Below, one piece after another: positions 34,419 through 38,776 of a DNA stretch of 38,776 nt. Position 1 is the stretch's first letter; each line of letters opens with the position of its first letter. The notes below the pieces were generated by a model. The model was given only the letters and a program-made list of their open reading frames with translations. It did not search any database and was not told the origin of the DNA. Source of the stretch: Deltaproteobacteria bacterium (GTDB lineage Bacteria; Myxococcota_A; UBA9042; PHBI01); NCBI GenBank assembly GCA_006226565.1, contig SBGO01000522.1, positions 1-38,776 on the forward strand, read 5' to 3'. The translations under genes and the position numbers were made by a program.

Positions 34419-34495
34419 TGGCAGGCCAGGAGGGATTCGAACCCCCAACCCCCGGATTTGGAGTCCGGTGCTCTACCGATTAGAGCTACTGACCC
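34419..34495 (-). tRNA. tRNA-Trp(CCA)
   Basis: 77 nt with encoded CCA (34419-34421) and discriminator G73. The anticodon stem CCGGA/TCCGG closes the loop CTCCAAA, giving anticodon CCA. The acceptor stem GGGTCAG/CTGGCCT has G1-U72 and U4-G69 wobbles. It precedes secE by 58 bp on the same transcript and follows its own promoter. Confidence 0.97.
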
Positions 34496-34549
34496 ACAAT
34501 GACTCCACGCGGTGCCGGTACACAGAGGCACCGGCGCTGAAGCCGCGAG

Positions 34550-34579
34550 ACCATAGGAGCGCTGGCGAGATCCTGTCAA
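34550..34579 (-). promoter_or_regulatory. Promoter of tRNA-Trp-secE-nusG-rplKA
   Basis: Minus-strand TTGACA (34579-34574), an 18-nt spacer, TATGGT (34555-34550). The start would lie about 45 nt before tRNA-Trp. A CGGTGCC/GGCACCG hairpin (about 34510-34535) lies in the leader. Confidence 0.75.
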
Positions 34580-34638
34580 GCAATATTCGGACCGATGCCA
34601 GCAGCCGCCCCTCTGGAGTCGATGAGGGGCGATCTCAT

Positions 34639-34687
34639 CACGTGGCGGCGGATCGGATCGATGATCCATGGGATCCGCCACCGCGTG
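34639..34687 (-). terminator. Hairpin after rpmG
   Basis: A 16-bp stem (34639-34654 with 34672-34687), with one mismatch and one wobble, begins 10 nt after the rpmG stop. No T-tract follows on the minus strand. It lies between rpmG and the tRNA-Trp promoter, so it probably ends or stabilises the tuf-rpmG transcript. Confidence 0.55.
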
Positions 34688-34697
34688 TCCCCTGGAG

Positions 34698-34883
34698 CTA
34701 CTTCGTCTCCCGGTGGAGCGTGTAGCGACGCAGGAACGGGTTGTACTTCTTGAGCTCGAGACGCTTGGGCGTGTTCTTCTTGCTCTTCATGGTGGTGTAG
34801 CGGCTCGGCGACATCCCGAGGCCGCGAGCCTCGGTGCACTCGAGCGTCACGATCACCCGGTTCTTGTTGACCTTGCTAGCCAT
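34698..34883 (-). CDS. rpmG: 50S ribosomal protein L33
   Basis: 61 aa from ATG at 34883 ([20 protein letters not shown]), with GAGGG about 10 nt upstream. The frame is open further 5' but without conserved sequence. It has [20 protein letters not shown] and ends HRETK. Only one Cys (Cys16) remains, so the two CxxC pairs of the zinc form are missing: this is the zinc-independent type, in contrast to the zinc-ribbon L36 at 8397-8510. It sits between tuf and tRNA-Trp as usual. Confidence 0.96.
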
Positions 34884-34942
34884 GGCCCATTCCCTCGCTG
34901 GACGCGGGTTGATCCGCGCGCCCTCCGAACTCGACGTGGAAA

Positions 34943-34972
34943 GGGAGGTGACCCCGGCCGGAGCCACCTCCC
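34943..34972 (-). terminator. tuf-rpmG intergenic hairpin (partial terminator or attenuator)
   Basis: A 13-bp stem with two G-U wobbles and a GGCC loop (34943-34955 with 34960-34972), followed on the minus strand by TTTCC. It begins 37 nt after the tuf stop and could set the very high tuf to lower rpmG ratio. Confidence 0.65.
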
Positions 34973-35009
34973 ATCGTGTTTTTCAGGCCGACGAGCGGCC
35001 CGAAAGCGT

Positions 35010-36203
<1,194 letters not shown>

Positions 36204-36331
36204 GTCGTTTGCCTCGTTGGGTGGCGTGGCCTTGCCGCGTCGAGCGGAAGGATGACCTGGAAACCTGTTCCGGCCCTTTGCTTCGTCTAGATCGATCACG
36301 CCCCTCGCGCGGCGAACCGCGCGAGGGACCT

Positions 36332-36406
<75 letters not shown>

Positions 36407-36436
36407 GTTTGGACCCGGCGTCGTTTTATCGACTGC

Positions 36437-36512
<76 letters not shown>

Positions 36513-36546
36513 ATACAGCCGACGCACCGACGACGAGTCGATGGGG

Positions 36547-36629
36547 TGGAGGGGGTAGGATTTGAACCTACGTAGGCTTACGCCAGCAGATTTACAGTCT
36601 GCCCCCTTTGGCCACTCGGGTACCCCTCC
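36547..36629 (-). tRNA. tRNA-Tyr(GTA)
   Basis: 83 nt, a class II tRNA with a long variable arm. Acceptor stem GGAGGGG/CCCCTCC, discriminator A73. The anticodon stem GCAGA/TCTGC closes CTGTAAA, giving GTA. CCA is not encoded (CCC follows A73). Confidence 0.96.
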
Positions 36630-36684
36630 ACATGAGGCATTCCCCGCCTCTACGATCGACCTGGACTTGTGAAAGAGCTTACCA

Positions 36685-36757
36685 AGCTGACGGTGGGACT
36701 CGAACCCGCAACCTGCTGATTACAAATCAGCTGCTCTACCAATTGAGCTACGCCAGC
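36685..36757 (-). tRNA. tRNA-Thr(TGT)
   Basis: 73 nt without encoded CCA (TGG follows the discriminator T). Acceptor stem GCTGGCG/CGTCAGC with one G-U pair. The anticodon stem GCTGA/TCAGC closes TTTGTAA, giving TGT for ACA and ACG. It is the first gene of the Thr-Tyr-Gly-Thr-tuf transcript. Confidence 0.96.
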
Positions 36758-36919: not shown

Positions 36920-37651
36920 TCATCGCGCGCCGTGGCGCTGGCGCGCCGCCTCGGCGAGCGCGATTCCGGCGGTCACGCTGACGTTCAAGGATCGCACCGG
37001 CCCCGACAGCGGGAGCGCCGCCACCAGGTCACAGGCCTTCTTCACGCCGGGCCGCAGCCCGCGCCCCTCCGCGCCCAGCACGATGACCGTCGGCTCGCGG
37101 AGGTCGACGTCCCACAGCGTGCTGTCGCCGCCGGCGTCGGCGGCCACGGCCCAGAGCCCCTGATCGCGCAGCTGGCGCACGGCGCGGGCCAGGTTCGTCA
37201 CGCGGATCAACGGCACGTAGGCCGCGGCGCCGGCCGACGCGCGCACTGCGGCGTCGTTCAGCGGCGCGCTGTTGTCCTTTGGGACGATCACGGCCTGCGC
37301 CCCGAAGGCCGCGGAAGATCTGAGGATCGCGCCGAGGTTGTGCGGATCGGTGACCTGATCGAGGGCCACGACGAAGGGCGCCGGGACCTCGTCCGAGGGG
37401 CGCAGCGCGTCGAGGTCGATCGCCGGCGGCGGGCGCAGATCCGCGCCGATCGAGGCGCCTCCGCGGCTGCCCGAGCGATCGCGCTGGGCCGGCGCGCGCG
37501 CCTCCTCGATCCGGATCCCGAGCTCCCGCGCCCGGGCCACGATCGCCTCCGCGGCCGGGCCGCTCCCCGGCGTCCAGACGAGCCGCTCGATCGCCTTGGG
37601 CGCGACGTCGACCAGCTCGCCGACGGCGTTGACCCCATAGATCCTGCTCAT
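36920..37651 (-). CDS. rlmB: SpoU/TrmH-family RNA 2'-O-methyltransferase, RlmB-like
   Basis: 243 aa. A short N-terminal substrate-binding domain (residues about 1-60), then an Arg/Gly/Pro-rich linker, then the SPOUT catalytic domain. Its three motifs are visible: DQVTDPHNLGAILRSSAAFG, LGAEGRGLRPGVKKACD and PLSGPVRSLNVSVTAGIALA, the last with the catalytic-loop Asn. RlmB methylates G2251 of 23S rRNA in the P-loop; a related tRNA or rRNA target cannot be excluded. The start overlaps the proS-like stop (ATGA), so the two are coupled. Confidence 0.9.
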   Translation of the reverse strand: MSRIYGVNAVGELVDVAPKAIERLVWTPGSGPAAEAIVARARELGIRIEEARAPAQRDRSGSRGGASIGADLRPPPAIDLDALRPSDEVPAPFVVALDQVTDPHNLGAILRSSAAFGAQAVIVPKDNSAPLNDAAVRASAGAAAYVPLIRVTNLARAVRQLRDQGLWAVAADAGGDSTLWDVDLREPTVIVLGAEGRGLRPGVKKACDLVAALPLSGPVRSLNVSVTAGIALAEAARQRHGAR

Positions 37652-38776
37652 GCCCCCTCCCCTGCGTCCCGCGCCGCCAGGACCGCGTCCGCGACCTCCG
37701 CGAGCGCGACCTCGATCACGTCCCCACGGAGCCGGCGACGCAGCTCCACCGTCCCGCGCTCGAGCCCGCGCCGACCGACCACCGCGACGATCGGGTGGCC
37801 CATGACCTCGGCGTCACCGAGCTTCTGCCCCGGCCGGAGGTCGCGATCGTCGAAGAGCGTCGCGAGCCCCCGCGCCCGCAGCCCCGCGACCACCTCTTCG
37901 GCGGCCGCGCTGGTCGCGTCCCCGGACGATCCGAGCGAGATCACGGCCACGTCCCAGGGGGCCGCCGCGACCGGCCAGACGAAGCCCGCGTCGCTGATCC
38001 GGGCCTCCGCGATCGCGCCGAGCAGGCGGCCGAGACGCACGCGCACGTGGGCGATCGCGACCTGGGCCTGGCCGCCGCCGGCGGCGTCGACGGCGAGGCC
38101 GGCGCGCTCCGCGGGGGCCGCGCCGTGGCGCGTGATCGCGACGATCTCGGTGCCGGCGCGGAGGTGCCGTGGGGCCCCGCAGATCGGGCACGGATCGCCG
38201 TCGCCGAAGGCGGTGAGATCGCCGACGTGGGTGGCGGCGAAGTCCCGCCCGGGCGAGACGTCGACGAAGTGGACGTCACGGGCATTTCCGCCGGTGATCC
38301 AGGCGGTTCCGGCGGTGAACGCGCGGTCGGCGACGATCGGGATCGTGAGCCCCACCGGGCCGGCGAAGCCCACCGGGGCGCCCGTGGCGGCGGTGACCGC
38401 GGCGTCGCCGGCCAGGCGGAGCTCGCGGGCGCCGAGGACGCCGGCGAGCTTGGTCAGCGACAGCTCGCGATCGCCCGGAACGAGCGCCGCGACGAGCGCG
38501 CCGTCCGCGTCCACGATCATGGTCTTGAGCAGGTCGGCCGGCGTCCGGCCGAGGAACGCCGCGACGTCCTCGACGGAGCGCTGGTCGGGGGTCTCGACCG
38601 CGCGCCAGCCTTCGGTCGGCGCGGCCGGCCGGCCCAGGTGGGTGACCGGTGCCTGCTCGGCCAGGACGCCCTCGGCGCAGCGCTCGCACCAGGCGGCGGT
38701 CACGTCGTCGGTCAGGTCGGGGACCATCCAGCGCGCGCCGTCGCGCTCCGCGACGCGCTCGAAGCGGACGCCGAGC
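37648..38776 (-). CDS. Prolyl-tRNA synthetase-like protein with editing domain and degenerate catalytic core (5' truncated)
   Basis: 376 codons are visible; the 5' part is outside the window. In order: a short catalytic-core piece with two Cys pairs, the YbaK-like INS editing domain (SVEDVAAFLGRTPADLLKTM ... ATGAPVGFAGPVGLTIPIVA, with the Lys and the conserved His of RDVHFVDV kept), a CPIC knuckle, the rest of the core, and the C-terminal anticodon-binding domain (LFDDRDLRPGQKLGDAEVMG). Two core elements are abnormal. The proline-site motif resembling GSIGGSxSHEF is absent just after LGVRFERVAERDG. The GHIFxLGxKYS and motif 3 GCYGIGVSR blocks read IVAITRHGAAPAERAGL and IAHVRVRLGR. Length and frame are otherwise clean. 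It may be a trans-editing or regulatory paralog, or an unusual ProRS. The stop overlaps rlmB by 4 nt. Confidence 0.85.
   Translation of the reverse strand, partial: LGVRFERVAERDGARWMVPDLTDDVTAAWCERCAEGVLAEQAPVTHLGRPAAPTEGWRAVETPDQRSVEDVAAFLGRTPADLLKTMIVDADGALVAALVPGDRELSLTKLAGVLGARELRLAGDAAVTAATGAPVGFAGPVGLTIPIVADRAFTAGTAWITGGNARDVHFVDVSPGRDFAATHVGDLTAFGDGDPCPICGAPRHLRAGTEIVAITRHGAAPAERAGLAVDAAGGGQAQVAIAHVRVRLGRLLGAIAEARISDAGFVWPVAAAPWDVAVISLGSSGDATSAAAEEVVAGLRARGLATLFDDRDLRPGQKLGDAEVMGHPIVAVVGRRGLERGTVELRRRLRGDVIEVALAEVADAVLAARDAGEGA

Follow-up and report, generated by a model that had tools for sequence, protein, structure and literature searches.

An apparently inactivated bacterial-type prolyl-tRNA synthetase with retained editing and anticodon-binding domains, a candidate proline counterpart of archaeal ThrRS-ed

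The trans-editing proteins of the INS family have all been described as single-domain enzymes (PMC11295145). Among them, ProXp-ala consists of one domain that reads the C1:G72/A73 elements of the acceptor stem (PMC10164551). YbaK, another trans-editor of the INS superfamily, is likewise a single domain, specific for Cys-tRNA and without tRNA specificity of its own. A different architecture is found in archaeal ThrRS-ed, which combines an editing domain with an anticodon-binding domain (ABD) and has no catalytic site (PMC11295145, PMC9976931). ThrRS-ed is present in some Archaea (Korencic 2004, as cited in PMC7373986) and is entered in NCBIfam as 'Ser-tRNA(Thr) hydrolase'. A case similar to the proposal made below is the Anabaena ThrRS pair T1/T2, in which one synthetase gives up aminoacylation and serves its partner ligase as an editor, with the difference that T1 is conditionally inactive through zinc loss and is not mutated (PMC4787780). 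In a review of duplicated synthetases, the entry for prolyl-tRNA synthetase (ProRS) is ProRSx, an active enzyme (PMC9437257), and no dead full-length ProRS was reported in the open-access literature that we searched.

The editing of Ala-tRNA-Pro by INS in E. coli relies on recognition of G35/G36 by the ABD, with little contribution from the acceptor stem; the E. coli enzyme also deacylates human Ala-tRNA-Pro, although it cannot charge this tRNA (PMC3973320). Because INS editing depends on these ABD-anticodon contacts, a protein composed of INS and ABD is how an editor serving a ligase of foreign type would be expected to look. Communication between the two domains has been called poorly understood (PMC3973320, PMC11295145).

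The DNA analysed here (the window, 38,776 bp) is the whole of contig C129 of a MAG, G000, which comprises 7.7 Mb in 780 contigs and is 94.8% complete with 3.8% estimated contamination. On the minus strand at the end of the contig (37648..38775) lies a ProRS-like gene with 375 visible codons, whose 5' end is cut by the contig end and whose N-terminal third is absent from the assembly. From the contig end its frame runs uninterrupted to a TGA overlapping the ATG (ATGA) of rlmB, the gene for the SpoU-family 23S rRNA Gm2251 methyltransferase (36920..37651, minus strand; TIGR00186 above cut-off). Just downstream of rlmB, positions 34419-36757 hold tRNA genes (Thr, Tyr, Gly, Thr, then Trp) among tuf, rpmG, secE and nusG, in the order usual for bacteria around tuf.

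The nearest solved structures to the encoded protein were bacterial-type (P-type) ProRSs, and its INS domain and ABD were found to be intact. The INS domain (38236..38610, minus strand; Pfam tRNA_edit, PF04073, E = 4e-23) carries a KTMIV Lys, the GxxxGP loop (GAPVGFAGPVGL) and the pocket His in TGGNARDVHF, and thus belongs to the INS superfamily, defined by a PF04073 domain with the catalytic Lys and GxxxGP loop. We take this Lys, with an assumed numbering offset, to occupy the position of E. coli K279. The ABD (37678..37953, minus strand; HGTP_anticodon, PF03129, E = 6e-17) includes DDRDLRPGQKLGDAEVMGHP. Each of the two domains kept 17 of 19 near-invariant columns.

The motifs needed for aminoacylation were lost, as was seen in alignments with canonical ProRSs of the class and phylum. 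A remnant of the catalytic fold N-terminal of INS (LGVRFERVAERDGARW; 38728..38775, minus strand) is followed by a deletion of IGGSxSHE, from the GGSxSHEF loop of the proline pocket. The GHIFxLGxKYS block (38098..38154, minus strand) is ruined (GTEIVAITRHGAAPAERAG), with GTEIVAITRHGAAPAER in place of GIEVGHVFxLGTKYS. In class II motif 3 (38002..38052, minus strand), AHVRVRLGRLLGAIAEA stands in place of GCYGIGVTRIMAAAIEQ; canonical ProRSs have MGCYGIGVTR where this protein has IAHVRVRLGR, and the Arg alone is kept. The NCBIfam proline--tRNA ligase model gave 210 bits against a cut-off of 558, a score that is lowered by the truncation of the sequence. The protein therefore has neither the pocket loop, the GHIF block and motif 3 nor the equivalog-level score of a functional P-type ProRS, and we infer that it no longer aminoacylates. 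No N-terminal half with motifs 1 and 2 was found elsewhere in G000, and at the locus the contig ends before them. These results agree with a preliminary description of the sequence, which had recognized both retained domains, the missing pocket segment and the replacement of the other two motifs around a single Arg.

To quantify the difference between the domains, we aligned the protein with 77 canonical P-type ProRSs. Mean identity to the canonical proteins was 41% in INS and 36% in the ABD, as compared to 42% and 45%, respectively, among the canonical proteins themselves; in the C-terminal catalytic part it was 25% versus 55%, and in the pocket segment 20% versus 51%. Of the near-invariant positions, 34 of 38 were kept in INS and ABD together, as against 19 of 44 in those catalytic parts that are visible (Fisher p = 1e-5). 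The GHIF block and motif 3 were both missing in two of the 88 P-type open reading frames collected, this protein and one other locus; all canonical relatives examined carried the pocket loop as well as these two motifs, with the exception of a few trivial motif variants and the contig-truncated L012. An AlphaFold model computed from two sequences only had a pLDDT of 40.

A sequencing error or frameshift hiding the motifs was ruled out. In tblastn searches, every canonical protein gave a single continuous alignment in one frame across the gene; matches in other frames were weak and came from flanking translations, and none restored the lost motifs, in line with the earlier reading that neighbouring frames hold no compensating frameshift. 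GC3 was 0.91-0.96 in every segment of the open reading frame, similar to tuf and rlmB. The gene is thus confirmed as a P-type ProRS gene in which the aminoacylation motifs are destroyed and INS and ABD are retained.

A search of G000 for another proS, recommended in the preliminary description, found an intact one of a different type. Contig C635 encodes a complete ProRS of the archaeal/eukaryal type (E-type) that has no INS domain (TIGR00408, 490 bits against a cut-off of 437); therefore, the inactivated protein is not the prolyl-tRNA ligase of this organism. A search of G000 for the class II core (PF00587) detected this enzyme and ThrRS (C589, TIGR00418), and no second P-type ProRS was found in the genome. 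SerRS was absent among the PF00587 matches, probably owing to an assembly gap. A contaminant origin of C635 is unlikely: its tetranucleotide signature correlated with those of G000 contigs at a mean r of 0.86, as compared to 0.73-0.85 among G000 contigs themselves, and the compositions of both C635 and C129 fit the genome. In addition, a genome of a sister genus in the same family, G001, has an E-type ProRS that is 73% identical.

Among 53 relatives, mostly of the same class, the E-type and P-type enzymes were mutually exclusive, with both present in G000 only. In a sample of 379 genomes of the phylum, P-type matches were present in 248 and E-type matches in 112; six genomes had both (G000, G055, G080, G257, G292 and G321). 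The P-type ProRSs of G055, G257, G292 and G321 (L138, L143, L139 and L144) have canonical motifs beside the E-type enzyme; these genomes may be at an early stage of replacement, or may use both enzymes stably. One further genome, G351, contains two P-type copies with identical match scores (C99:8293-9354 and C116:63101-64162), likely a duplicated or contaminating contig.

The gene neighbourhood suggests where the inactivated gene came from. G000, G001 and G002 are sister genera of one family. In G002, a canonical proS overlaps rlmB stop to start (GTGA), the same arrangement as in the window, and in G003 and G004 rlmB lies shortly downstream of proS. In G001, rlmB is present (57%), the gene upstream of it is unrelated and divergent, and no trace of a ProRS was found there when the locus itself was read in this 85% complete genome. 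The family thus includes P-type alone (G002), E-type plus dead P-type (G000) and E-type alone (G001), which appear to be steps of one replacement. Judging from sequence and gene order, the window gene is best understood as the ancestral P-type proS, which has stayed in its original place while a ProRS of another type took over its role. The position of the gene, the other type of the second ProRS and the lack of a further P-type copy rule out a duplication paralog, so this half of the preliminary suggestion of a catalytically dead paralog editing in trans does not stand; the other half, a dead protein that would act as a trans-editor, is well supported, as an inference, by the presence of the E-type enzyme. 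A functional coupling to rRNA methylation, also suggested earlier, was rejected: the proS-rlmB overlap is an inherited order shared with the canonical relative G002, and is therefore no sign of such a link.

Examination of the P-type proteins of dual-type genomes revealed a second dead ProRS, L140 (G080:C142:1471-3063, minus strand), in a distant family of the same phylum; the G080 genome also carries an E-type ProRS. Its open reading frame of 530 amino acids begins with MRLTRLLAPTLRESPADA, so that the N-terminus is visible. L140 has lost motif 2 (RDE, GREF), SHEF, GHIF and motif 3, and has kept INS (LKTLVL, GALPGSLGAV, TGANREGHHVRGV) and the ABD (YDDRDERAGPRFKDADLYGSP); near-invariant columns were retained at 35 of 38 positions in INS and ABD versus 44 of 99 in the catalytic parts (p = 2e-7). 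In a tree of INS plus ABD, L140 grouped with canonical ProRSs of other families in a well-supported clade (100/99) that did not include the window protein, and a tree constrained to a common origin of the two was not significantly worse (AU p = 0.079). Independent inactivation is thus favoured, but not proven. With the window protein excluded, a dead P-type enzyme was found in one of five dual-type genomes and in none of about 73 other P-type proteins checked (p ~0.06, hand calculation), which is only suggestive of an association with the E-type ProRS. No close orthologue of either protein was detected in the 379 phylum genomes or in 142 relatives of G080, and no second genome of the genus of G000 was found.

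We also compared the editing proteins of these genomes. G000 has two tRNA_edit domains, that of the window protein and that of a YbaK-like protein (C119; TIGR00011, 146.7 bits against a cut-off of 153), whose nearest structure is a Cys-tRNA(Pro) deacylase; ProXp-ala is absent. G001, which has no P-type proS, has a YbaK-like protein together with a NUDIX-ProXp-ala fusion (7e-34 to ProXp-ala). That the E-type genome without the old gene has ProXp-ala, and that G000, without ProXp-ala, kept the old INS, is suggestive, but not compelling. The fusion protein (L086, G001:C190, 1450-2571, minus strand) joins a MutT/MTH1-like NUDIX hydrolase to the ProXp-ala domain and so unusually combines nucleotide sanitation with tRNA proofreading. 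E-type genomes of family f8 in the class mostly lack any INS-family (tRNA_edit) protein, and editing is therefore not strictly required beside an E-type ProRS. G009, G014, G017, G021, G027, G029 and other f8 genomes have no known Ala- or Cys-tRNA-Pro editing.

We propose that the window protein is probably a displaced synthetase that has become a two-domain trans-editor acting on Ala-tRNA-Pro, and is for proline what ThrRS-ed is for threonine in Archaea. The lineage would have gained an archaeal/eukaryal-type ProRS without INS, while the old P-type gene stayed in place. Aminoacylation would then no longer have been selected, allowing loss of the proline-pocket loop, the GHIF block and motif 3; selection for editing would have continued, preserving INS together with the ABD that would give it its tRNA specificity. 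The dead ProRS may capture mischarged tRNA-Pro via the anticodon, and its INS domain may hydrolyse Ala from Ala-tRNA-Pro made by the E-type enzyme, which would recharge the freed tRNA-Pro. The separate YbaK would clear Cys-tRNA-Pro.

Similar to ThrRS-ed, the window protein is synthetase-derived, combines an editing domain with an ABD, has a dead catalytic site, and is accompanied in the genome by a separate, editing-free ligase. ThrRS-ed differs in being archaeal and directed at threonine, in its unrelated DTD-like editing fold and in the complete absence of the catalytic domain; the window protein, in contrast, keeps remains of the catalytic fold, and the ligase beside it belongs to another evolutionary type. 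Its INS fold and ProRS lineage indicate that it is an analogue of ThrRS-ed, not a homologue. Its locus, its two retained domains and what is left of its class II fold mark it as an apparent direct descendant of the bacterial P-type ProRSs (NF006625, TIGR00409), from which it differs in its lost motifs and low model score. The reaction proposed for it, hydrolysis of Ala-tRNA-Pro in trans for a ProRS without INS, is that of ProXp-ala, but in the window protein INS is joined to an ABD and a remnant core, unlike the single-domain ProXp proteins and YbaK.

It is possible, though we consider it unlikely, that the protein is a sensor or regulatory subunit which binds tRNA-Pro or the E-type ProRS and regulates or stabilises the ligase, with editing secondary or absent. 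Some dead paralogs of synthetases do have regulatory roles, and the ABD is kept. However, a conserved INS active site, with its Lys, GxxxGP loop and pocket His, would be unexpected in a pure sensor, and no regulatory gene is linked, the adjacency to rlmB being inherited context.

The gene might instead be a functionless relic of the displaced ProRS that is on its way to being lost, with G001 as the end point, an explanation that we regard as improbable. Its dispensability in G001 and the destroyed active site would fit, and its 5' end lies beyond the contig end. However, the decay is limited to the aminoacylation parts, with the INS and ABD columns kept, and neutral drift over a time sufficient for the loss of motif 3 would have erased INS as well. 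The frame open over 375 codons, the GC3 at the level of tuf and rlmB throughout, and the same selective loss over a full-length open reading frame in the distant lineage of L140 also argue against a relic.

Very doubtful is a remodelled enzyme of new specificity that still performs some synthetase-like adenylate or aminoacyl-transfer reaction: the Arg of motif 3 and some of the fold remain and the half with motifs 1 and 2 lies beyond the contig end, but the protein has lost the loop of the amino-acid pocket and the glycines of the ATP site, and L140, visible in full, lacks the RDE and GREF of motif 2 as well. An artefact, whether a chimeric contig or an E-type ProRS from another organism, might be suspected in a 780-contig MAG with some estimated contamination and with the gene at a contig end, but is scarcely credible given the single continuous frame, the fitting composition of both contigs, the E-type enzyme of G001 and the independent case in G080.

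For the phylum, we lean towards the view that when ProRS is replaced, the resident enzyme is repeatedly stripped to a two-domain, anticodon-reading INS-ABD 'ProRS-ed', unlike the known INS trans-editors, in at least two lineages. Free-standing editing factors are themselves common, but their separation from synthetases has rarely been caught in progress. The window protein would be a natural separation-of-function ProRS, which makes it testable whether INS and ABD suffice for specific editing. If the proposal is true, it would add an origin of trans-editing enzymes that has not been described before.
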